Origin: an uncultured bacterium
Lineage (GTDB): Bacteria; Atribacterota; Atribacteria; Atribacterales; Caldatribacteriaceae
Assembly: GCA_937922705.1 (NCBI GenBank)
Contig: CALAIW010000025.1
Coordinates: 1 to 55,839, forward strand
Direction: 5' to 3'
Length of the DNA: 55,839 nt
Part shown: in pieces, positions 16,793-53,769 of the stretch
How the letters are laid out: each line of letters begins with the position of its first letter
How positions within the stretch are numbered: position 1 is the first letter of the stretch
Translations under genes and position numbers: made by a program
Notes under the pieces: model-generated
Databases searched by the model: none
Told to the model about the DNA's origin: nothing
Seen by the model: only the letters and a program-made list of their open reading frames with translations

Positions 16793-17791
16793 ATGAGGCG
16801 TGGAAAGAGGAGAAACTTTCTTCCCGGCATCTTTGTCTGTGCTTGTGGAATGAGTATCCTTTTTGCTCAGGGGGTGGGGCAGGGGGGTTACCATTTCTGG
16901 GACTCTCTTGCGCTCTTTCGCGCCTTTTCCCTTGCACCAAGTGAGCGGACTATTCTTTTTGCCATCCGTCTCCCAAGGGTTCTCCTCTCTTTTCTCGTGG
17001 GTGGAGGGCTTTCCTTAGGGGGAGCTGTGCTTCAAGGAGTGTTTCAGAATCCTCTTGTGGACCCATACATCCTTGGGGTAAGTTCTGGGGCTGCCTTTGG
17101 AGCGGTGGTGGCAATACTCTCGGGAATCTACTTTGGCCTTTTTACCGTGCCTCTGTGTGCCTTTTTGAGTGCTCTGGGGACAGTGTTTTTTGTCTTTCGT
17201 CTTGCCCGGGTGGGAAGAAAAATGCCCCTTGAGGTTTTGCTTTTGGCCGGCCTTGCCGTGGGCTTTTTCTTCTCTGCTCTTATTTCCCTTGGGATGTTTC
17301 TTTCGGGAGAAAACCTCCATCAGGTGGTTTTTTGGACCATGGGAGGATTCTGGGGCCGAAGCTGGGGGAACGTCGGGATGGTCCTTCCCTTTTTTGCTGT
17401 GGGAGTCCCAGTGCTTCTCTCTTTTGGAAGGGAACTGAATGCCTTCCTTCTTGGGGAGAAGGTGGCTGAAAGCCTAGGAATCGATGTGGAACGCACGAAG
17501 CGGCTTCTTCTTTCTGTTGTGGCTCTTCTTGTGGCAAGCTGTGTAGCAACAAGCGGGGTCATTGGATTTGTTGGTCTTGTGGTTCCTCATGTTTTACGCC
17601 TTCTTGGGTTTCAGGACCATCGTAAGCTCCTGCCCCTCTCTCTTTGTGTGGGGGGTGTGGTACTTCTTCTTGCCGATACTCTTGCTCGAAGCATTATCCA
17701 TCCTGCGGAACTCCCCGTTGGGGTTGTGACCAGCCTCCTTGGGGCTCCCTTCTTTGTATACCTTCTCCGCCAGAGAAAGAAAGGTCTATGA
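16793..17791 (+). CDS. btuC: Cobalamin ABC transporter permease
   Basis: A 332-residue FecCD/BtuC-family permease with about ten transmembrane helices. GGGLSLGGAVLQGVFQNPL near residues 74-92 and the cytoplasmic coupling helix GVIGFVGLVVPHVLRLL near 260 are the family signatures; the latter contacts the ATPase. There is no Shine-Dalgarno sequence before the ATG, in keeping with a leaderless transcript from TATAAT at 16780. The TGA stop overlaps the ATG of the ATPase gene (ATGA). It is separated from btuF by the reverse small gene, so it may not be under the riboswitch. Confidence 0.92.
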   Translation: MRRGKRRNFLPGIFVCACGMSILFAQGVGQGGYHFWDSLALFRAFSLAPSERTILFAIRLPRVLLSFLVGGGLSLGGAVLQGVFQNPLVDPYILGVSSGAAFGAVVAILSGIYFGLFTVPLCAFLSALGTVFFVFRLARVGRKMPLEVLLLAGLAVGFFFSALISLGMFLSGENLHQVVFWTMGGFWGRSWGNVGMVLPFFAVGVPVLLSFGRELNAFLLGEKVAESLGIDVERTKRLLLSVVALLVASCVATSGVIGFVGLVVPHVLRLLGFQDHRKLLPLSLCVGGVVLLLADTLARSIIHPAELPVGVVTSLLGAPFFVYLLRQRKKGL

Positions 17792-19032
17792 GGCCGTATC
17801 TTGAGGTTTCGGAAGTTTCTTTTGCCTATCGCGATGGAGAAGAGGTTCTAAGCAATATCTCTTTTACCCTGGAACGGGGGGATTTCGTTGGAGTTCTTGG
17901 CCCAAATGGCTCTGGGAAAACAACACTTTTGCACCTTATGGCTCGTCTTCTTGTGCCTCGGAAGGGGGCTATTTTCCTTGAGGGGAGAGACATCCAGACT
18001 TTTCCCCGAAGTGCTCTTGCCCGGAAGATAGCGGTGGTTTTCCAGGAGATACCAGGGAATATCAATCTTCCGTGTCTTGATGTTGTCATGATGGGGCGTA
18101 TTCCCTACCTTTCCCGTTTCCAGAAGGAGACAAAGGTTGATGAGGAGGCGGTACACTGGGCCATGGAAGTTACTGCAACACTCCCCTTCGCTGAGGAACC
18201 TTTTAGCGAACTCTCCGGGGGAGAACGGCAGAGGGTTTTGATCGCCCGGGCTCTAGCCCAAAAACCGGAACTCTTACTCCTTGATGAGCCAACGAGCCAT
18301 CTTGATGTAGCTCACGAACTTGAAATCCTTGAAATCCTCAAAAATCTTACTGCAATGGGTATTACGGTTTGTGCCATTTTCCACGACGTGAATTGTGTTG
18401 CCCAGTTCTGTGGGAAAGCACTCCTTTTGAAGGCTGGGTATCTCCTCCGGTTTGGCCAAGTTACGGAGGTGCTTTCCGAAGAGTCTCTTGAGGAGCTTTT
18501 TGGAGTGCCTTTTGCGGAAGTGGCCCATCCCTTTGCCATGCGCTCGCTTTTTGTGCCTCTTCAGGGACCTCGTGCACGACCTCAACGCGGATGGGTGCAT
18601 CTCATATGTGGGGGAGGAAGTGGAGTACCGGTTATGCGGCTCCTCTACGAGGCAGGGTTTACAGTGAGTGTGGGGGTGGTGAACCAGTTTGACTCCGATG
18701 CAGAAATGGCAAGATACCTTGGTTTTCAAACCGTGCTGGAGAAACCCTTTTCCCCGGTAGGTGAGGAGGCTATGCGTGAGACCCTTGCTCTTGCCCGAAG
18801 TGCAGACTACGTGGTCATTGCTCCAACTTTTTGGGGATGGGGAAATGTGCGCAACCTCGATCTTGCCCTTGCCCTTCAGAAAGAGGGAAAACGGGTTTTT
18901 GTTTTTTCTGATGCCTTGAGAGAGGACCATGACTATACGGGAGGTGAAGCACAAAAGAAACTTCGTATCCTCCTTGAGGACGGAGGGTTAGTTGTAGACC
19001 ACGCCAGGGCGCTCCTTCGCCATATGGTATAA
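17788..19032 (+). CDS. btuD: Cobalamin ABC transporter ATPase with extra C-terminal domain
   Basis: A 414-residue protein. Residues 1-250 are an ABC ATPase: Walker A GPNGSGKTT (38-46), Q-loop Q86, signature LSGGERQ (142-148), Walker B LLLLDEP (162-168) and an H-loop IFHD. That is the length of ordinary BtuD. Residues from about 265 to 414 form an additional domain beginning HLICGGGSGVPVMRLLYEAG, with alternating strands and helices (VVNQFDSDAEMARYLG, SADYVVIAPTFWGWGN) like a Rossmann fold; such tails occur on some corrinoid or metal-chelate ATPases and their role is unclear to me. It starts at the ATGA overlap with btuC. Its end carries the promoter of the next gene. Confidence 0.9.
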   Translation: MRPYLEVSEVSFAYRDGEEVLSNISFTLERGDFVGVLGPNGSGKTTLLHLMARLLVPRKGAIFLEGRDIQTFPRSALARKIAVVFQEIPGNINLPCLDVVMMGRIPYLSRFQKETKVDEEAVHWAMEVTATLPFAEEPFSELSGGERQRVLIARALAQKPELLLLDEPTSHLDVAHELEILEILKNLTAMGITVCAIFHDVNCVAQFCGKALLLKAGYLLRFGQVTEVLSEESLEELFGVPFAEVAHPFAMRSLFVPLQGPRARPQRGWVHLICGGGSGVPVMRLLYEAGFTVSVGVVNQFDSDAEMARYLGFQTVLEKPFSPVGEEAMRETLALARSADYVVIAPTFWGWGNVRNLDLALALQKEGKRVFVFSDALREDHDYTGGEAQKKLRILLEDGGLVVDHARALLRHMV

Positions 19033-19033
19033 T
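19025..19033 (+). promoter_or_regulatory. Extended -10 promoter inside end of btuD
   Basis: TGGTATAAT straddles the btuD stop and lies 28 bases before the ATG of the DUF4384-type gene. It would start a separate transcript for the 19062-23280 cluster. No -35 hexamer is visible. Confidence 0.6.
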
Positions 19034-19061
19034 GCTACAAAAGGCAAAGGGGGAGACGGCG

Positions 19062-20564
19062 ATGTCCCGGAGGGTTGTAATGGTATTTTTCGTGCTTCTT
19101 TGTGTGTGGGGTGCTATGGCCTTTGCCCAGGCAGAAGTTCTCCTCCGCTTTACCCTGAGTCCCCAAATCTACATTTCTATTCCCCGTTCGGCGGATATCA
19201 ATGTCTCGGTTGATCGAGGCGAAGGAGCAACTTACACTATTGGTGACCCCATAACCATTCGTTACCGTACGAACCGCGATGGCTACGTTAACCTTATCGA
19301 TTACCTTCCAAGCGGAGAGGTGCGAGTCCTTGTGCGTAATCGTTTTGTTCGTTCGGGAGTCAGTGAAACGTATTCTGGAACGGTTTCTGGTCCTGGGGGA
19401 ACAGAGCGCCTTGTTGCTCTCCTTACCCCTGCTCCAGTGTCTGATGGGGATTTGGAGCGCTTTATCCAAGCGCCGCACCAAGCAGGTCGTATCTTCCGGG
19501 GCCAATACGCAACCGATCGGACCCACTTTCAGGTCATTGCCCGGGTAGAGGGAACAATCCTCACCCTTGAGCCCCAGGAGGTACAAATTGGCCCATCGAG
19601 CGCTCTCGTTTTTACTGCTACCTTGACCACTTCGGGTGGAAGACCTCTTGAGGGACAAGAGATTCGCTGGTCGGTGAGTAACGGATCCATAGCGAGTCTT
19701 CGAACCTTTACTGGTCCTGATGGGACCTCGAGGAATACCTTCTATGCTCCATCCTTTTCAGGGACAGTGACTGTGGAAGCGTATTTTGCAGGCGATGTTC
19801 GTCTTGCTCCGTCTTCGGCGCGTGCTACCGTTGAGGTGGGACGGCGTATTGTCGAAACATACTTGAGTCTTGAGCCAGCAAAGACGGTTCTTTCTCCAGG
19901 TGAGCGGGTACGAATTGTTGCTCGCCTTAGGGATCGGGATGGGAATCCCCTTTCTGGGCGGACCATCGAATGGGAGGCTCCCCGGGGAACCTTGAGTACT
20001 ACTTCAAGCGTTACTGATACTTCCGGCCGGGCTTCGGTTTTCTACACTGCTCCACGGGTTCGGGAAACAACCGATATCGACCTTGTGGCTCGTTTCCCAG
20101 GAAGTGCTCAGTATGCCCCTTCAGAAGCTTTTGTGACCGTAACGGTGGAGTATGCGCGTCCTGTACTCTCTGAGACCCTCTTTTTCCTTGACTTTTCAAG
20201 CGGCACGGCAAAGCACAATGGTGACCGTTTGAGCTACAAGGGACGGATGGTTTCTGATTTTTCGGTGAACGGTGTCACCCTCCTTGAGATGCGCCGGGGA
20301 GAGAGCGTTGAATTTCGCTTCACTCCTGGAGCGGTTCCGGAGGAAGGGGTTATCTACCTCTGGATTCAGGGAGATGGTGGTATTGAGGTGAACCTCAATG
20401 GGAATAACCTTGGAACCATACCGGCGGTAACGGATCTCCTTTCTCCGAGTACTGAGAAGCGGCTCATTGTGACCTTCCGGGACTTCGTTGCTAGGACCAA
20501 TGTACTCCGTCTTACTTCTTCTGGACGGGTTGTACGTCTTCAACGAGTGGTCATCGTCTTCTGA
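19062..20564 (+). CDS. Secreted DUF4384-type protein with Ig-like repeats
   Basis: A 500-residue exported protein. A signal peptide covers residues 1-24 (cleavage near AFAQ). Next is a DUF4384-like domain (GDPITIRYRTNRDGYVNLID and following), then two bacterial Ig-like domains of the invasin type (around 170-260 and 265-365), each with the pattern VxLSxxGRPLxGxxIxW. The C-terminal 120 residues are a further beta domain that I do not recognise. The role is probably structural or adhesive in the periplasm or at the cell surface. The start is ATG 19062, preceded by AAAGGGGGAG; a start at 19032 lacks a ribosome-binding site and would spoil the signal peptide. It leads a cluster with the diguanylate cyclase. 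Confidence 0.8.
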   Translation: MSRRVVMVFFVLLCVWGAMAFAQAEVLLRFTLSPQIYISIPRSADINVSVDRGEGATYTIGDPITIRYRTNRDGYVNLIDYLPSGEVRVLVRNRFVRSGVSETYSGTVSGPGGTERLVALLTPAPVSDGDLERFIQAPHQAGRIFRGQYATDRTHFQVIARVEGTILTLEPQEVQIGPSSALVFTATLTTSGGRPLEGQEIRWSVSNGSIASLRTFTGPDGTSRNTFYAPSFSGTVTVEAYFAGDVRLAPSSARATVEVGRRIVETYLSLEPAKTVLSPGERVRIVARLRDRDGNPLSGRTIEWEAPRGTLSTTSSVTDTSGRASVFYTAPRVRETTDIDLVARFPGSAQYAPSEAFVTVTVEYARPVLSETLFFLDFSSGTAKHNGDRLSYKGRMVSDFSVNGVTLLEMRRGESVEFRFTPGAVPEEGVIYLWIQGDGGIEVNLNGNNLGTIPAVTDLLSPSTEKRLIVTFRDFVARTNVLRLTSSGRVVRLQRVVIVF

Positions 20565-45918: not shown

Positions 45919-46881
45919 TCAACATGAGGGGAATCCGCAAAATGCAAGCACCCAGCCCAGAGCGTTCCAGAGAAGGAGTCCAAAAAGCGCGCCCTTTTTG
46001 GGATTTGGGTCAAGGGCGCAGAGAAAGGCAAGAAGGAGGGAAGTAAATGGAGCTACAAGATGGGGGGCAAGAAGAGAAAGTGCAAAAATGCCCCAGAGGA
46101 CTATGGTGTGGGCGATTCCGGAAAAAGAAGCGGCGCAGAGAAGGGGAAGCGCAAGGATAGTACCGTTTTGGGCTTGAACGAGCATTTCCCTCGTTTTGAG
46201 GAATGCTTCAAGGGAAAGCTCTGGATTCCGGAAGGCGGACAGGGCGTATCCCTCATAGACCCAGCCAAAAAAGAGCGACATTCCCTGAAAGACAAGGGAC
46301 GGAAAAAGGGCAAGGGCAGCGAGCGTTCCCCGGCGGTGCAACGGTACCTGGAAGAGGAGGGCCTCGCAGAGCGCAAAGAAGGGCAAAAGCCAAAGCCCAA
46401 AGGGGTGTAAGGAGGTACCAAAACCAAAGGCAAGATTGCCTATGAGAAGCTCCTCGAGAGCATTTTTGGTGGTGCTCTGGAGCATGACAGAAAACCCTAG
46501 GGCAACAAAAAAGGAAAAAAGGGTTAGAGCTGGTCGCATCAAGGCTCCGAAGATATACACTGGGGAGAAGAGGACCAAAAGCGCAGGGAAAAGGTTACGC
46601 CGTCGTGCCCCAAAAAGGAGAAGGGCAAACGCTACACTCCATCCGACAATATGTGGAAAGTACTCGCGGAAAGCTAAGGCCAGGAGAAGGGGGAGTGAAG
46701 GATGGGTGGCAAGGATTCCCTGGGCAGGGTCAGGGAGATACCGAACGGCAAGCGCCCGGAGAAGAAAAAAGCGAGCTTCAGGATGCGAGAAATTCTCCCC
46801 ACGGAGGATAGCGCTTAAACCTAATAAGCTTAAAAATGCTGCAACACCAACGATACCGTATGGTGCACTTTTCTGCCTCAT
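45919..46881 (-). CDS. Polytopic membrane protein of the exopolysaccharide operon
   Basis: A 320-residue protein with about nine hydrophobic segments and short polar loops. FSHPEARFFLLRALAV near residue 31 and the ATHPSLPLLLALAFREYFPHIVGWS stretch resemble the start of GT-C or DUF2723-like transporters or glycosyltransferases, but I cannot name the family. The ATG overlaps the stop of the glycosyltransferase gene by four bases, so it is the last gene of the operon. Likely roles are polymer export or modification; this is inference from position. Confidence 0.65.
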   Translation of the reverse strand: MRQKSAPYGIVGVAAFLSLLGLSAILRGENFSHPEARFFLLRALAVRYLPDPAQGILATHPSLPLLLALAFREYFPHIVGWSVAFALLLFGARRRNLFPALLVLFSPVYIFGALMRPALTLFSFFVALGFSVMLQSTTKNALEELLIGNLAFGFGTSLHPFGLWLLPFFALCEALLFQVPLHRRGTLAALALFPSLVFQGMSLFFGWVYEGYALSAFRNPELSLEAFLKTREMLVQAQNGTILALPLLCAASFSGIAHTIVLWGIFALSLLAPHLVAPFTSLLLAFLCALDPNPKKGALFGLLLWNALGWVLAFCGFPSC

Positions 46882-48731
46882 TGTTTCTTCCCCTTGTGAA
46901 GTCCGTGGACAGTCTTTTCCCAGAAAAAGGGTCGGGAAACGAGCTGTCCAATACCCTTCCAGGCGGCTACACCGGCAAGCATCCAGTAGAGGGGATTTAC
47001 AAGTGCAAAGGGAAGGAGATGATCAAGGTTGCGACGAAAGACGGCAAACATGGAGAAGTACACCCCAAGGAGGTTCCCCACAAAGAGGTTCACTGCACCG
47101 ATGTAGAGCAGTGCTCCCGAGAAGTACGTCCTGAGGAACTCGCTGCGGGTCACAAGCCACCCAAAGAACACCCCCCAGAGAATGAGGGAGGCGGCGTATC
47201 CAAGAGGTGTTCCACCAATGAAAAGCCAGAGAGTGAGGATCCCTCTGATGCCTGAAACCCGAAGGGCATAATAAGGTCTCCGGGTATGCACGAGGAAGGT
47301 CTGAAGGTACCCCTTAAGCCAGCGAGAACGCTGGCGAATCCAGTTTCGAATGTGGCTATTCGCCTCTTCGTACGTTGTGGAGGGAAGGATTCCCACCCGA
47401 AAGCCTCGGTAGTGTGCGCGCATACCAAGGTCGGCATCTTCAGTGACGTTAAAGGGGTCCCATCCACCAAGTGCTCGCAAAGCCTCCGTCCGAAAGTGGT
47501 TCGACGTCCCTCCAAGGGGGATGGGAAGGCGAAGGTGAAAGAGCCCAGGGAGAAGGTAATCAAACCAGAAGGAGTACTCAAGAGTGAAAAGGCGAGTCAG
47601 AATGTTTTGGGTAGGGTTGTAGAAGTTCAAGGCTGCCTGGAGGCAGACGAACTCTTTGGGGAGTTTTGAAAAGGCAACCACGGCTTTTTTAAGCTGGTCT
47701 TTTTCGGGAATGTCTTCCGCATCGTAAATGGTGAGGAATTCCCCTTTGGCAAAGGCAAGGCCAAAGTTGCAAGCCCGGGGTTTTGTTTGTGGTTGTCCTC
47801 GGGGAATAAGGATGAAGCGAACGTTGTACGGAGGATGTGCCTCTTTGCAAGCCCTCAGTGTTTCCGCATCGTCTTCCTCGATGAGAAAGAGAACGTCAAG
47901 CTTTTCTTGAGGGTAATCAAGAGACCGAATGGAGTGGACAAGTTGCTCAATGACCTCTTTAGGCTCCCGATGGAGAGGGAGAAGGATAGTATAAACGGGA
48001 AGGGTGCGAGGGTCAAGAGAAGCAAGGTCTTCTTCGGTAATTGTGACTGACGCAACCGGTGTTGCCCCCTGTATCCCCACGATGGTTTTGAAAAGGACCT
48101 GACCAAAAAAGGCGAGATTCATAATGGCAAAGAGGATACGTAAGGTAGTTTGAGGGGCGAAGAACGTTCCTGCAAGGAGGGTAAAGAGTATCGTGACGAG
48201 TATCCCCCACTGCCAGGGGACAAGAACAGAGGCAGCTGATTCTTCTGGAGCGCGAAAGAAAAGCCCGGTGGTGGCTTCGGCAAGGAAACGCTCCTTGAAG
48301 AAAAAGTGGAGAAGCCAGTCAAGTTCATAAGGAGTTATGAGCGCTTTGCTCACGGATACCCCAGGAAAGGTACGCTTAAGCCAGGCGTCCTGGGCTTCGT
48401 TATCCGGAAAAGGGGTGAGCACCTCGAGGGTTCCATTTGCGATACGACGGGGAAAAAGAGCAAGACGAAGGAGCTCCGAAGGGTTCAAGCGAGAAACAAC
48501 ATTAGGGTCAATGCTTACGAGAAGTTCTGAAAGGTTTCTGCCTGCATAAAGGCGGTTTCCCTGTTCGGCAAGGGCCTCGTAAAGCGTTACTGGATGCACA
48601 AAGCCCCGGGAAATGAGGATTTCTCCAAGGAGCCTTCCACTTTCCCTTTGGAGCCGCAGGGCTTCTTCAAGTTCCTCCCTTTTGAGAATACCCCGAGAAA
48701 CCAGAATTTCCCCAAGAGGCTTCCAGGTCAT
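46878..48731 (-). CDS. Processive family-2 glycosyltransferase with N-terminal MshEN c-di-GMP domain
   Basis: A 617-residue membrane glycosyltransferase. Residues 5-28 and 34-57 are two 24-residue MshEN motifs (PLGEILVSRGILKREELEEA and the rest; LLGEILISRGFVHPVTLYEA and the rest), separated by exactly five residues, matching the published c-di-GMP-binding pattern with L, G, L, L/I, L, L and Q in place. After two membrane helices (near 150-195) the GT2 domain has TILLPLHREP, YDAED (DxD), VTEDADLG and QRSRWLKG, the set found in BcsA-type polymerases; more helices follow. Fusion of MshEN to a GT2 is known from NfrB. The start ATG 48731 overlaps the bcsB-like stop (ATGA). Confidence 0.9.
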   Translation of the reverse strand: MTWKPLGEILVSRGILKREELEEALRLQRESGRLLGEILISRGFVHPVTLYEALAEQGNRLYAGRNLSELLVSIDPNVVSRLNPSELLRLALFPRRIANGTLEVLTPFPDNEAQDAWLKRTFPGVSVSKALITPYELDWLLHFFFKERFLAEATTGLFFRAPEESAASVLVPWQWGILVTILFTLLAGTFFAPQTTLRILFAIMNLAFFGQVLFKTIVGIQGATPVASVTITEEDLASLDPRTLPVYTILLPLHREPKEVIEQLVHSIRSLDYPQEKLDVLFLIEEDDAETLRACKEAHPPYNVRFILIPRGQPQTKPRACNFGLAFAKGEFLTIYDAEDIPEKDQLKKAVVAFSKLPKEFVCLQAALNFYNPTQNILTRLFTLEYSFWFDYLLPGLFHLRLPIPLGGTSNHFRTEALRALGGWDPFNVTEDADLGMRAHYRGFRVGILPSTTYEEANSHIRNWIRQRSRWLKGYLQTFLVHTRRPYYALRVSGIRGILTLWLFIGGTPLGYAASLILWGVFFGWLVTRSEFLRTYFSGALLYIGAVNLFVGNLLGVYFSMFAVFRRNLDHLLPFALVNPLYWMLAGVAAWKGIGQLVSRPFFWEKTVHGLHKGKKQ

Positions 48732-50677
48732 AGGGGCCTTGAACGGATGAGTTTGCGGTACAGTGTAAGGCACCACCCAAGGAGGACAACACAAGCACCA
48801 GCAAAGAGAAGCAACCTCCAGCGTAAAAAAGCCTCTTCAAGAGAAGAGGTGGTACTCAGGGAAACGCGTGTTTCTCCCCACCCTCCTGGGGTAAAGATTG
48901 CCACATTTCCTACCATGCGGCGAAGGGTCTCGGCTCCCCTAAAGTGTTTCAAGAAAGCACTGTAGGCGAGGTCTCTGCGTCCAATGGGAGTAAAGACAAG
49001 AGCTGGTTTCCCAGAGATTCTTTGAGCGATAAGAACTCCTCCTGGAGTATCAGGAGCAAGGGCAAAGGTTTCAAGACCTGGGAGAGGGGCAAGGACGAGG
49101 GTTTCGCTTCTGCGGAGGGCAGGAGTTGGTGAGGGTAGCATACCCTCTCGGTCCACGACAAGGAAGTACTCTTGCAGCACAAGAGGTGGGGTGAGGAGGA
49201 ATCGAAAATCCAGCTCTTTCAGGGCTTTAAGGAGAGAAGGAAGAGAAAAAGGCGGGAACTTCTTCCGTCTTTCAGGGATGGTATGTACCACTTCAAGGAC
49301 AAGGGGAGTTGTGTCAATCTCCCGAAGGGCACTGTAGAGTCGTGCCACAACCTCGATTTCCTCGAGGGAAGGCTTTTCAGGAAGAACAACCCAGGCCTTT
49401 CCAGAGAACAAGGTGGGGGCATCGGCAAAGGTTACGGTGTCCGGGGTTGCCCTGAAAGTGCCGGAGAAATACGACTGCTCAAAAATTGTGGCCTCAAAGG
49501 GCATGGTCCCTCTTCTGCACTCACCCACTTCTGGGAAGTATGCAAAAACGATGTCCAAAGTATTTTCTCGCCCGAGGAGCCTTGGAGGGAGGAAAATAAC
49601 CTCTCTTTCGATACCCTTTTGGGTTTTCTTGAGAATCTTTCGAGTGCAAACAAGGGTATTGTTGAGGAACACTTTAAGAAATACCTCACTTTTTGGGGTT
49701 TCCGGAAGAGGTGTGCTTGAGAAGAAGAGGTTGAGGGAAAGAGATGCCGGAATACCTCCAAGATCTGCAAGGGTAAAATACACCCTTTGCCTGAGTTCCC
49801 CAATGCCCCGGAGGGTTGTGCTTCGCATTCCAAAGTCTTGGAGGGTACGCTTTCTCTCAAAAAAGAGGGGCAGGCTCCGGACTTTAAAAGAACGGCCGGC
49901 AAAGAGGGGGAGCTCGGCGAGAACCCCTTGCACTCCCTGAGGGGTAAGGTACAGGGTAAATCCAAGCAGCTCTACGTCTCGAAGGGCTTTCTCCCGAAGG
50001 ATAATACGGAGCTCCTTGGCGTCTTCTCTTTCAGGAAGTCTTAAGGGAAGCATTTCGGTAACGACTTCCCGCCGGATGCGGCGAAGAAAGGCAAAGAGTT
50101 TGAGATACGCCGCAAGGAGTTCTTTTGAGGGGGAATCTTTAGGGAGGAAAACGCGAATACGTGATGCGGGGAAACGGAAAAAATCTCGGACCGTCCAGTT
50201 TGCTACACCGAGGTCGGTAACGAGGGAACTTATTGCACGGATACGAACAAAGAGGTCTTGGGAGAGAAGGTCCTCACAGAGATTCTCGCTTCTTTGCAAG
50301 CTTCCCCGGACTTCAATTCGGATAAGGTCTTTGAGAGGCAATCCCTCAAGGGGGGCAAGAGAGATTCTCGCGCGGTGCTCTCCAGGGCGAATTTCCCAGG
50401 AGGAAAGGAGTATGCCTTCGGCAGAGACAGAAAGGGTTGCACCACGAGAGAGAGCAGGAGAGGCAACATACTCAAGAAGGAGTGCCGTGTCTTTAGGGCG
50501 CATCCCGGGTAAGACCGGAAGATACAGAGAAAGAGACGGTGCTGGTCCCTCAAGAACAAAATCTTCGGTGATGCCAGTGATTTCCTGAAGCGTCCAGGAA
50601 AAAGGCGTTGTTTTTCCCTCGCCGTGCCCGAAAAGCAAAAAAAGAAGTACCCCCAAGAGAAGGATGGCACGTCTCAC
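48728..50677 (-). CDS. BcsB-like periplasmic polysaccharide synthase subunit
   Basis: A 649-residue protein with a signal peptide (1-21), a large periplasmic part and a single C-terminal transmembrane helix (about 622-642, RWRLLLFAGACVVLLGWCLTLY). BcsB surrounds the nascent glucan and guides it through the periplasm. The first domain (DTALLLEYVASPALSRGATLSVSAEGILLSSW) and the repeat pattern of carbohydrate-binding-like and flavodoxin-like domains match BcsB. It overlaps both neighbours by four bases (GTGA with the isomerase gene, ATGA with the glycosyltransferase gene). No BcsC, BcsZ or PilZ gene is near. Confidence 0.82.
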   Translation of the reverse strand: MRRAILLLGVLLFLLFGHGEGKTTPFSWTLQEITGITEDFVLEGPAPSLSLYLPVLPGMRPKDTALLLEYVASPALSRGATLSVSAEGILLSSWEIRPGEHRARISLAPLEGLPLKDLIRIEVRGSLQRSENLCEDLLSQDLFVRIRAISSLVTDLGVANWTVRDFFRFPASRIRVFLPKDSPSKELLAAYLKLFAFLRRIRREVVTEMLPLRLPEREDAKELRIILREKALRDVELLGFTLYLTPQGVQGVLAELPLFAGRSFKVRSLPLFFERKRTLQDFGMRSTTLRGIGELRQRVYFTLADLGGIPASLSLNLFFSSTPLPETPKSEVFLKVFLNNTLVCTRKILKKTQKGIEREVIFLPPRLLGRENTLDIVFAYFPEVGECRRGTMPFEATIFEQSYFSGTFRATPDTVTFADAPTLFSGKAWVVLPEKPSLEEIEVVARLYSALREIDTTPLVLEVVHTIPERRKKFPPFSLPSLLKALKELDFRFLLTPPLVLQEYFLVVDREGMLPSPTPALRRSETLVLAPLPGLETFALAPDTPGGVLIAQRISGKPALVFTPIGRRDLAYSAFLKHFRGAETLRRMVGNVAIFTPGGWGETRVSLSTTSSLEEAFLRWRLLLFAGACVVLLGWCLTLYRKLIRSRPL

Positions 50678-51696
50678 GGTTTTCTCCCTCCTTCGAAGCT
50701 ACATTCAAGTCTTCTCAGAAGCCACTTGAAGTGCGTGACTATTGGGATACGCTCGATATCTTCAGTGTGTATCTGAGCAAGGTGGATACTCAACCAGTCT
50801 CCAAAAGCCACAAGGGATAGGGCACGGCACAAGGATGACGTTCCCTGTGCCCAGACTTCAAAAGTTTTGATACCCCTTTTTGCCACATGCTTGAGGTACA
50901 TTCGGGCCATAGTGGTGCAGCAACTTGGTTCTTCTGGATCGTGGAGGAACACAAAGGCAAGAGGCAGAGCCTCGGGGTGGAGAAAGGCAACGATTTCGTT
51001 GTGCATGGCTTCAGGAATGGTACTGGCAAAGGCTACGTGCTTAGCATTTTCGTTGCACTGAGTTTTGTAGCGCCAGGCGACACAATCTGTATAGTGCTCG
51101 ATGCCTATAAAGACGGGAATGAGGTTGGCCATCTCCTGGGCCATCTGGTAGGGAAGGCCTTGAGAGGAAGCGTAGGTAGGAATGACTGCCTGAAGGTGAT
51201 TTTGTGTTTCTTCAAGGTCTTGAGAAAAAGAGAGGAAAGGGAAAAGTGCTTCGAGAGCTCCAAGGATTCCACCGACTATGTACCCTAAGGCAAAGCGAGG
51301 TTGCAGTCCCCCAGGAAGGCGTACAAAGATGTCTCTGTCTTCCTTCTCCTTTTCCAGCTTTCCTCCCTGGGAGAGGAGAAGGAGCAATGCCCCTCGTTTG
51401 CGTGCTTCCCGAGCGAGGGCAAGGGTTTCTTCCGTATTCCCCGAGTACGTAGAGGCTATACACAGGGTGTTCTCGTTCACCCAGGCGGGAAGTGGTGGAG
51501 AGGAAACAGTAAGGAAAGGAAAAGAAAGAAGTGGTTCAAGGATACGTGCGAGGATTTTCCCACCAATCCCTGATCCTCCGATACCACAAAAGAGCACAGC
51601 CTTTGGCGCATGCAAAAGAGATCCTGAAACGGCTTCTTTGCCTCTTTGGTATCCCTCAAGGAGCTCTTCAGGGAAAGCACGAAGAATTGCTTCCAT
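50674..51696 (-). CDS. Bifunctional phosphoglucose/phosphomannose isomerase
   Basis: A 340-residue SIS-fold isomerase of the bifunctional PGI/PMI family, which interconverts glucose 6-phosphate or mannose 6-phosphate with fructose 6-phosphate. FCGIGGSGIGG (about 37-47), STYSGNTEETL (82-92) and NENAKHVAFASTIPEAMHNEI, with the conserved glutamate and histidine, are diagnostic. It heads the exopolysaccharide operon and would supply its hexose phosphates. The start is ATG 51696; the ribosome-binding site GGAAAGGGGGG sits inside one arm of a 16-bp inverted repeat, so its translation may be controlled by RNA structure. The start at 51699 (TTG) is less likely. Confidence 0.88.
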   Translation of the reverse strand: MEAILRAFPEELLEGYQRGKEAVSGSLLHAPKAVLFCGIGGSGIGGKILARILEPLLSFPFLTVSSPPLPAWVNENTLCIASTYSGNTEETLALAREARKRGALLLLLSQGGKLEKEKEDRDIFVRLPGGLQPRFALGYIVGGILGALEALFPFLSFSQDLEETQNHLQAVIPTYASSQGLPYQMAQEMANLIPVFIGIEHYTDCVAWRYKTQCNENAKHVAFASTIPEAMHNEIVAFLHPEALPLAFVFLHDPEEPSCCTTMARMYLKHVAKRGIKTFEVWAQGTSSLCRALSLVAFGDWLSIHLAQIHTEDIERIPIVTHFKWLLRRLECSFEGGRKP

Positions 51697-51701
51697 CAAA
51701 T

Positions 51702-51751
51702 CCCCCCTTTCCTCAGGTTATACCAGAAAAATTCCCCTGAGGAAAGGGGGG
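51702..51751. repeat. Perfect 16-bp inverted repeat over the ribosome-binding site
   Basis: CCCCCCTTTCCTCAGG (51702-51717) pairs perfectly with CCTGAGGAAAGGGGGG (51736-51751), with an 18-base loop. On the minus-strand RNA the right part of the stem is the Shine-Dalgarno of the isomerase gene. The loop contains TGGTATAAC (51725-51717 on the minus strand, overlapping the arm by one base), an extended -10. Neither side has a T-run, so it is not an ordinary terminator for the GH31 gene that ends at 51757. Confidence 0.85.
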
Positions 51752-51756
51752 AAGGT

Positions 51757-53769
51757 TTACCCGAGGATTGGGAGTTGTACTCCATCCCTGAGGAATAGGG
51801 GAATACGCTCTATCGGAGCGTCGGCGTCAATCCACTGGCCTCCCTCGTATACTGTTCCGGTGTAGGGGTCGGTAAAGCGTGCTCCTTTGGGGAGGTACAC
51901 CGGTCTTTTTCGAGCGCCCTCCTCGGTAACAGGGGCAACGAGGAGGTCTGGTCCAAAGAAGTACTCGTCTTCAACAGTGTAACACTCTGGGTCGTCTGGA
52001 AACTCAAAAAACAGTGGTCGCATGAAGGGTATGCCCTCTTTGTGGGCTTTGCGCATGCCCTCAAGGATATAGGGTTTCAAACGTTCTCGAAGAAAGAGAA
52101 GCCCTTTGATGATTGCATACGCTTCCTCCCCAAAGGACCAGATTTCATTTGGCCCTCCAGTGAGTTCCTCAGCTGGACAGCGGTTTGGGTCTTTCGGATA
52201 GGGAAGACGAAAGCCGTGAAGCCTAAAAATTGGGCAGAACACTCCAAACTGGAACCAGCGAACGATGAGTTCTCTAAAGCTTGGACTTTCTGGGTCCCCT
52301 CCGTAGAATCCCCCAATATCTGTAGTCCAAAAGGGAATGCCACATACACTCATGTTGAGCCCAGCTTTGATTTGCTTTCTTAAGGATTCAAAGGTTGAAG
52401 GGATATCTCCAGACCATACCACAACCCCAAAGCGCTGACTCCCAAGCCAGGCACAGCGAATGAGGTTGACAATCTCCTTTTCTCCCTCACTCTGCAGGCC
52501 CTCAAAGAAGGCCTGGGCATAGAAGAAGGGATAGATGTTACTCACTTCAAGGCCATTGCCCAAAAAGTAGCGAAGGTTGTCGTAGTCGTAAGGAAGAACG
52601 TTGTCGTACCCAAAGCCCGGCATACCAAATTCTGGCTCTGCTTCATCAAGCCAGAACATCTTGATACCATAGCGGTAGTAATTTTCTCGAACCCTTTCCC
52701 AGATGAATTTCCGGGCTTCAGGGTTTGTGGCATCAAAAAGGGTCGTAATACCGCGGAAAGTAAAGAGAACGGGGATACCTCTCTCAGTGCGAAGCAGAAG
52801 CCCCTTTTGAGCCATCTCTTGGTAGTTTTCGCTCTCGATATCCACGGTGGGCCAGATAGAGACCATGACTTTTACTCCGAGTTCCTCAAGTTCCCGGACC
52901 ATTTTCTCTGGATCGGGAAAGTATTTTGAGTCAAACTTCCAATCCCCCTGCTTGGGCCAGTGGAAGAAATCAACGATAATGACGGAAAGCGGGAGTCCCC
53001 GCTTTTTGTATTCCCGGGCAACCTCAAGAACCTCCTCTTGTGTTCGATACCGGAGCTTGCATTGCCAGAATCCCAAAGCCCACTCAGGGATCAAGGGAGG
53101 CTTCCCGGTGATTTCTGCGTAGCGGCGGAGGATATCTTTTGGGGTATCCCCAGTAATGACAAGGTAGTCGATTTGTCGGCATCCAGCAGAAAACCACATG
53201 GTGTGGTTTTTCGCAAGCTCTGCCCGTCCAATGGAGGGGTTATTCCAGATAAAGCCATATCCCCGAGAGGAAAGAAGGAAAGGAATACTGATTTGGGTGT
53301 TCCGTTGGGCAAGCTCAAGAACACACCCCTTAAGATCCAGACAGTCGTTCGCGTATTGCCCCATGCCAAAGAAGTGTTCTTCAGGATGGGCCTTGAAGTA
53401 CAGGGAAATCTCAAAAAGGTCGGAACTCTTTGCCTTGTAGTTTCGGGCTTTAAGGAGGTCAGCGTTTAAAACCCTTTGGTCAATCCAAAGTTCCTCAAGG
53501 AGTATTTCTCCAGTGTCCTTTCGGTATCGTACCGTTCCTTTGGCATCGACCTCGGCAACGATTTTCCCGTTCCGAATTCGCGCTCCTTGGGGAGTTATGG
53601 TTATCTCTGGTTCCACATCTTCCTGAGGAAGGAGGGTCCAGTCAAGGGGTTCAATACGCCCTCGGCGCGATGCACGAAAGCGAAGGCAATCCCGTCCAAA
53701 GGGTTCAATCCATATGATTTCTCCTCCGCCCTGGATGAGAAGTTTTTTTCCATCCTGAGTGAAAATCAT
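51757..53769 (-). CDS. GH31 alpha-xylosidase-like glycoside hydrolase
   Basis: A 670-residue family-31 glycosidase. The nucleophile is D375 in MFWLDEAEPEF, the sequence typical of alpha-xylosidases (YicI/XylS type) rather than GDMNE-type alpha-glucosidases; the acid/base is D455 in VVVWSGDIPSTFESL. An N-terminal beta domain (1-220), the catalytic barrel and C-terminal beta domains are complete. There is no signal peptide, so it acts in the cytoplasm on imported oligosaccharides such as xyloglucan fragments. It follows the two permease genes, fitting uptake plus hydrolysis. Start ATG 53769 has AGGTGG before it. Confidence 0.9.
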   Translation of the reverse strand: MIFTQDGKKLLIQGGGEIIWIEPFGRDCLRFRASRRGRIEPLDWTLLPQEDVEPEITITPQGARIRNGKIVAEVDAKGTVRYRKDTGEILLEELWIDQRVLNADLLKARNYKAKSSDLFEISLYFKAHPEEHFFGMGQYANDCLDLKGCVLELAQRNTQISIPFLLSSRGYGFIWNNPSIGRAELAKNHTMWFSAGCRQIDYLVITGDTPKDILRRYAEITGKPPLIPEWALGFWQCKLRYRTQEEVLEVAREYKKRGLPLSVIIVDFFHWPKQGDWKFDSKYFPDPEKMVRELEELGVKVMVSIWPTVDIESENYQEMAQKGLLLRTERGIPVLFTFRGITTLFDATNPEARKFIWERVRENYYRYGIKMFWLDEAEPEFGMPGFGYDNVLPYDYDNLRYFLGNGLEVSNIYPFFYAQAFFEGLQSEGEKEIVNLIRCAWLGSQRFGVVVWSGDIPSTFESLRKQIKAGLNMSVCGIPFWTTDIGGFYGGDPESPSFRELIVRWFQFGVFCPIFRLHGFRLPYPKDPNRCPAEELTGGPNEIWSFGEEAYAIIKGLLFLRERLKPYILEGMRKAHKEGIPFMRPLFFEFPDDPECYTVEDEYFFGPDLLVAPVTEEGARKRPVYLPKGARFTDPYTGTVYEGGQWIDADAPIERIPLFLRDGVQLPILG

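Follow-up and report, generated by a model that had tools for sequence, protein, structure and literature searches.

The usual view is that terminators separate bacterial operons. In translational coupling, an intercistronic stem masks the SD of the next gene, and the leaders of IS10 and IS50 protect the transposase genes from outside promoters. The leader of IS200 tnpA contains an inverted repeat that sequesters the ribosome-binding site (PMC12594629). In bacteriophage T4, the SD of gene e (lysozyme) is masked on the longer early transcripts, and the RNAs from late promoters situated just upstream are made without the 5' strand of that stem; leaders with a sequestered SD are likewise listed for soc, gene 49 and I-TevI (PMC3014915). 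We examined an inverted repeat between two chromosomal operons, upstream of an isomerase gene whose leader is predicted to behave like that of gene e, in which the long RNA initiated upstream sequesters the SD.

The window, meaning the whole stretch of DNA that was analysed (55,839 nt), is a complete contig (G000:C25) of a 1.85-Mb genome. A sugar-uptake operon and a polysaccharide operon meet on its minus strand, with 60 nt between the last gene of the former and the first gene of the latter. The genes concerned are the following:

51757–53769, minus strand: GH31 alpha-glucosidase/alpha-xylosidase-like gene, closing the sugar-uptake (ABC transporter) operon, with its stop codon at 51757–51759.
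50674–51696, minus strand: bifunctional phosphoglucose/phosphomannose isomerase-type gene (SIS domains), opening the polysaccharide operon, with its ATG at 51694–51696.
48728–50677, minus strand: BcsB-like gene (PF03170, E=1e-11).
46878–48794: cellulose-synthase-like glycosyltransferase gene, in the same operon as the isomerase and BcsB-like genes.

The GH31 product matched Pfam PF01055 (E=3e-86) and also PF21365, and its top NCBIfam matches were alpha-xylosidase/MalA, under the model cut-offs. The isomerase matched Pfam PF10432 (bact-PGI_C, E=8e-35) and the NCBIfam family PRK08674, the latter under the cut-off. With a 4-nt overlap between its GTG start and the stop of the isomerase gene, the BcsB-like gene is probably coupled to the isomerase in translation. 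The glycosyltransferase carries an N-terminal MshEN-type c-di-GMP-binding domain and its gene adjoins the BcsB-like gene, which suggests that the polysaccharide is under c-di-GMP control.

Read on the minus strand from the end of GH31 to the isomerase start, the sequence is GGGTAA ACCT TCCCCCCTTTCCTCAGG GGAATTTTTCTGGTATAA CCTGAGGAAAGGGGGGA TTTG ATG, and its parts are listed here in the order of transcription:

51736–51752, minus strand: 5' arm TCCCCCCTTTCCTCAGG, SD-complementary, beginning 4 nt past the GH31 stop.
51740–51745, minus strand: candidate weak −35, TTTCCT, 17 nt before the −10 and within the 5' arm.
51724–51749, minus strand: weak intrinsic-terminator-like hairpin CCCCT-TTCCTC-AGGGG, then AATTTTTCTG, in which the 5' arm pairs with the loop.
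51718–51735, minus strand: 18-nt loop, holding a T-run and most of the −10.
51717–51725, minus strand: extended −10 TGGTATAAC of the candidate local promoter, from sequence and conservation.
51701–51717, minus strand: 3' arm CCTGAGGAAAGGGGGGA, containing the isomerase SD.
51702–51712, minus strand: SD-containing GGAAAGGGGGG, within the 3' arm.
51708–51712, minus strand: predicted transcription start region (about 51710), within the 3' arm, inferred from the position of the −10.

The two arms (51701–51717 and 51736–51752) form an inverted repeat of 17 bp with 100% complementarity and 18 nt between them. The first-pass annotation had described a 16-bp inverted repeat here; it is real and perfect, and one pair longer than described. 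An extended −10 had also been placed in the loop, and we located it at 51717–51725, abutting the 3' arm so closely that its final base is the first base of that arm. The call of a local promoter is based on this extended −10 and its conservation, and a simple promoter scanner did not report the site at 51717–51725 because its −35 is poor. The spacing of the candidate −35 was unchanged in G002, G003 and G004 of the genus comparison below, and the motif was not kept in G001. The local RNA is predicted to start near AAAGGGGGGAUUUGAUG. The small terminator-like hairpin and the 17-bp stem are mutually exclusive.

We consider it probable that these parts make up a self-insulated promoter, in which read-through RNA would mask the isomerase SD and a local start would escape the masking. 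Polymerase arriving from the sugar-uptake/GH31 operon would produce an RNA with both arms, the 5' arm would emerge first, and it would pair with the isomerase SD in the 17-bp stem once the SD is transcribed. With the SD masked, the isomerase would stay untranslated and, by coupling, so would the BcsB-like and glycosyltransferase genes. A start at the extended −10 of the loop would give an RNA that begins in the 3' arm, without the 5' arm, and that leaves the SD accessible close to its 5' end. The polysaccharide operon would thus be driven by its own promoter despite a gap of 60 nt without a clear terminator. We infer in this way the local transcript start, the read-through, the translational block and insulation as the purpose of the arrangement.

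The 17-bp repeat exceeds chance expectation. In a 440-kb sample that included the window we found four perfect repeats of at least 17 bp with a loop of up to 80 nt, this one among them, and the longest perfect repeat in third-order Markov copies of the same sample was 14 bp. When 840 kb (45%) of the genome was sampled as stretches, only four perfect repeats of at least 13 bp had a loop of more than 10 nt; this was the longest and the other three were of 13 bp. Nearly all long repeats in the 840 kb had loops of 3–7 nt, many of them with A-rich 5' arms as in terminators. We also scored the helix between an upstream arm and the SD for 120 extended −10 sites lying ahead of gene starts; the score was 45 here and 26 in the runner-up, with about 20–25 for shuffled upstream sequence (maximum of 24.5 among the replicates listed).

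Folding predictions bore out two further claims of the annotation, that the stem hides the isomerase SD on a long RNA and that a local transcript leaves it free. In read-through RNA with 100 nt of upstream sequence, the predicted cost of opening the SD was 23.6 kcal/mol at 37 °C, 18.7 at 55 °C and 14.4 at 70 °C. In RNA beginning 7 nt past the −10 it was 3.0, 1.1 and 0.5 kcal/mol, and across starts a few nt past the −10 it was about 1.1–1.2 kcal/mol at 55 °C and 0.5–0.6 kcal/mol at 70 °C, the contrast being present at the three temperatures alike. At 55 °C, the long and short RNAs were predicted to require 18.5 versus 5.8 kcal/mol in G003, 12.4 versus 4.2 kcal/mol in G004, and 8.5 versus 4.2 kcal/mol in G002, a modest contrast with 100 nt upstream. 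We also surveyed 732 gene starts in the 840 kb, with genes and starts taken from a simple script without annotation, and compared the opening cost in RNA with 100 nt upstream to that with a 20-nt leader. The isomerase ranked first of the 732 in predicted SD access lost on the long RNA (difference of 14.7 kcal/mol at 55 °C), followed by a start with 11.5 kcal/mol and, in third place with 9.5 kcal/mol, by the junction between a chemotaxis receptor gene and an ATP-grasp ligase gene. In a smaller set of 382 gene starts, the isomerase and the ligase junction likewise held ranks 1 and 3.

We then compared five genomes of the genus, from G000 (this genome) to G004. The GH31 gene adjoins the isomerase gene in G002, G003 and G004, and outside the genus the two genes were not neighbours; named genomes yielded only remote relatives of the isomerase. 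Conservation in relatives, which the annotation had named as a check, was found: the C-rich arm, the extended −10 and the G-rich SD arm were kept in 4/5 genomes (G000, G002, G003 and G004), and both the extended −10, as TTTTCTGGTATA or TTTTTCTGGTACAAT, and the isomerase SD in all five. The conserved blocks of the gap in G002–G004 were CCCCCTTTCCTCA, TTTTCTGGTAT and the G-rich SD, CCCCCTTTCCTCA of the 5' arm being invariant in the four genomes that include G000. Loop lengths were 18 nt in G000, about 21 nt in G002 and about 40 nt in G003 and G004, and the stem still pairs, with a single G-U in G002 and a single bulge in G003/G004. The 5' arm begins about 4–6 nt after the GH31 stop in these four genomes, within which the arm pattern is unique to the GH31–isomerase gap. 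The overlap of the 5' arm with a possible −35 (TTTCCT) is a counterpoint to insulation; that possible overlap aside, the evident role of the C-arm, as far as the sequence tells, is pairing with the SD. G001 has the GH31 gene, the −10 and the SD without the 5' arm, in a longer gap of about 155 nt, which also counts against insulation. This gap (G001:C54) contains a small terminator-like hairpin, AGGGG/CCCCT with ATTTTTCT, directly before the −10, and upstream a perfect 28-nt palindrome, GAGGGCGAAGGAGCGCTCCTTCGCCCTC, with no U-run.

A genus-wide search for the order C-arm, TGNTA and SD-arm recovered the same order in all five genomes at the junction from the chemotaxis receptor to the ATP-grasp ligase. 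The genes of this second junction, a chemotaxis receptor, a D-Ala-D-Ala-ligase-like (ATP-grasp) gene and then a dehydrogenase, are unrelated to the isomerase locus. Its elements, written as arm, spacing and arm, are:

G000 (G000:C10:40190-40220): CCCCCCTCC-13-GGAGGGGGG
G002: CCCCCCTTCAGT-5-ACTGGAGGGGGG
G003 and G004: CCCCTCCCTAAT-5-ATTAGGGAGGGG
G001: CCCCTCCC-19-GGGAGGGG

Between G002 and G003/G004, 12 out of the 12 pairs were kept, four of them by two-sided changes and one as G-U, and sliding the partner by 1–3 columns left at most one two-sided pair. This covariation value was equalled in 7 of 500 shuffles, with three distinct sequences only, and we regard the covariation as good but not overwhelming evidence. 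What selection seems to preserve at the second junction is the pairing and not the sequence itself, and this speaks more for an RNA (or cruciform) role than for a site of protein binding. No comparable sites were found with the reversed arm order around the −10, and no such element was seen at the ligase locus outside the genus. A further element with a C-rich arm, TGCTATGAT and GGGAGGGG was observed in G004:C68 and G003:C50, conserved in these two genomes. What can be read directly from the DNA is the arms, the −10 and the SD, the conservation of all three, and the covarying pairs of the second locus. We give roughly even chances to the broader proposal that the genus separates adjacent operons without terminators by promoters inside SD-masking repeats, which would have evolved independently at no fewer than two junctions and been kept by compensatory changes, as a chromosomal translational insulator.

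The masked-SD promoter design is a local solution and not a genome-wide one, because across the genome SD-complementary arms were not in excess ahead of extended −10 sites: mean SD-complementarity in these upstream regions was not above that of swapped controls, and the other candidates scored at chance. The canonical-SD version of the pattern showed no excess over the reversed control, and a genomic search for the arm as a recurring motif or regulon site likewise gave none. Since no conserved C-arm accompanies the other conserved promoters that share this −10, such promoters can do without the arm, and it is not a promoter part as such. Two further candidates were dropped. A URO-D-domain gene (G000:C2:38973) was considered as a third case, and its promoter is conserved and its arm is not, the extended −10 TTTCTGRTATACTACYTT being strongly conserved and the SD-complementary CCCCTCTTT present in G000 alone. 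The window gene at 19032/19062 was considered as a fourth case, and its arms lie in coding sequence and are not clearly conserved. In this region (window 17644–19062), the promoter TGGTATAAT is genus-conserved and sits within the 3' end of the preceding coding sequence, ahead of the gene starting near 19032–19062.

Among the other explanations of the repeat, the one that survives best, though we judge it unlikely, is termination, in which the 5' arm and the loop would form a hairpin (CCCCT/AGGGG followed by AATTTTTCT, with the T-run just before the −10) that halts read-through. The terminator-like match in G000 folds with −8.2 kcal/mol at 37 °C, and in G001, the genome without the SD-masking arm, AGGGG/CCCCU and then ATTTTTCT occupy that place, with the 28-nt palindrome upstream of them. 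The hairpin of G000, however, has only about 5 pairs and at 70 °C is worth about −3 kcal/mol, G002–G004 showed nothing corresponding to it, and the scan yields many such matches (16 against 8.3 in shuffles). The 17-bp stem itself does not look like an intrinsic terminator: it has no direct U-run, the sequence after it being UUUGAUGG (minus strand) or AGGTTTAC (plus strand), and it is unlike the many strong hairpins of the genome, with their A-rich 5' arms (hence T-runs) and loops of 3–7 nt. The annotation's description of two operons isolated without a terminator is not certain, because the weak small hairpin may contribute, by ending part of the read-through ahead of long-stem formation.

Translational coupling, in which the isomerase would be silent until a ribosome finishing GH31 loosens the stem, so that the operons would be linked and not isolated, has the short distance from stop to arm in its favour, which is kept at about 4–6 nt in four genomes while the loop varies. 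By our own estimate from the usual footprint, a terminating ribosome would cover about 5–6 of the 17 arm bases and leave about 11 pairs, GGAAAG included, and the local promoter, present in 5/5 genomes, would be of little use were read-through RNA the main message. We therefore hold coupling as the main function to be quite improbable. The GH31 stop 4 nt before the arm may nevertheless leave room for partial coupling, and the annotation's statement that only the local promoter would allow translation is too strong, because a ribosome ending GH31 there could loosen the base of the stem.

We give equally little credence to a DNA operator, in which the repeat would provide regulator half-sites straddling and repressing the promoter, perhaps by looping. 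The arms do flank the −10, as operator halves often do, and the second-locus palindrome in G003/G004 is centred on the −10. Half-sites at fixed spacing that recur in a regulon were not found: the spacing of the arms varies (about 18, 21 and 40 nt here and, at the second locus, 5, 13 and 19), so that helical phasing is lost, and extra genomic copies of the arm do not rise above the reversed-control level. At the second locus the arm sequence drifts and the pairing stays, and the G-arm is always downstream and always the SD, the opposite order giving no comparable sites. Least probable of all is that the stem only shields the 3' end of the message from the sugar operon, or serves as a processing site, with an incidental SD overlap. 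The stem does stand directly behind the GH31 stop, and another strong palindrome takes its place in G001, but the pairing partner is the SD in all four genomes, as it is at the second locus, and a protective stem need not contain an SD or enclose a promoter.

The interpretation of the first-pass annotation, SD masking on read-through RNA with escape by a local start, is thus largely supported by the predictions and comparisons made here. If the self-insulated promoter is true, packed operons could be kept apart in translation even as transcription continues through them, and one compact element of about 50 bp would serve as promoter, leader and insulator. The order of an SD-complementary arm, a −10 and an SD would then be a searchable signature for operon borders that RNA-seq alone would merge, and a compact part for synthetic circuits.

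A literature search of partial coverage returned no report of this design between chromosomal operons. In coupling hairpins the stem likewise lies before the next gene, but at the isomerase locus the upstream gene ends before the stem and the promoter lies inside it. The insertion-sequence leaders are not homologous to this element, with no transposase or mobile element at the isomerase locus, and the transcript of IS200 itself carries the stem, whereas the local transcript of the isomerase is predicted to be made without the 5' arm. The closest likeness is to T4 gene e: the SD is placed by folding prediction in a stable stem on the longer RNA, and in 4/4 two-arm genomes the promoter, judged by its position, would give an RNA without the 5' strand. 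The two leaders are not homologous, and T4 separates early and late times via phage late promoters, whereas the isomerase locus, lying between two metabolic operons of a chromosome, has a vegetative-type extended −10 in its loop. The mechanism is one known from T4 gene e, and what appears to be new is that it is used between operons of a chromosome.
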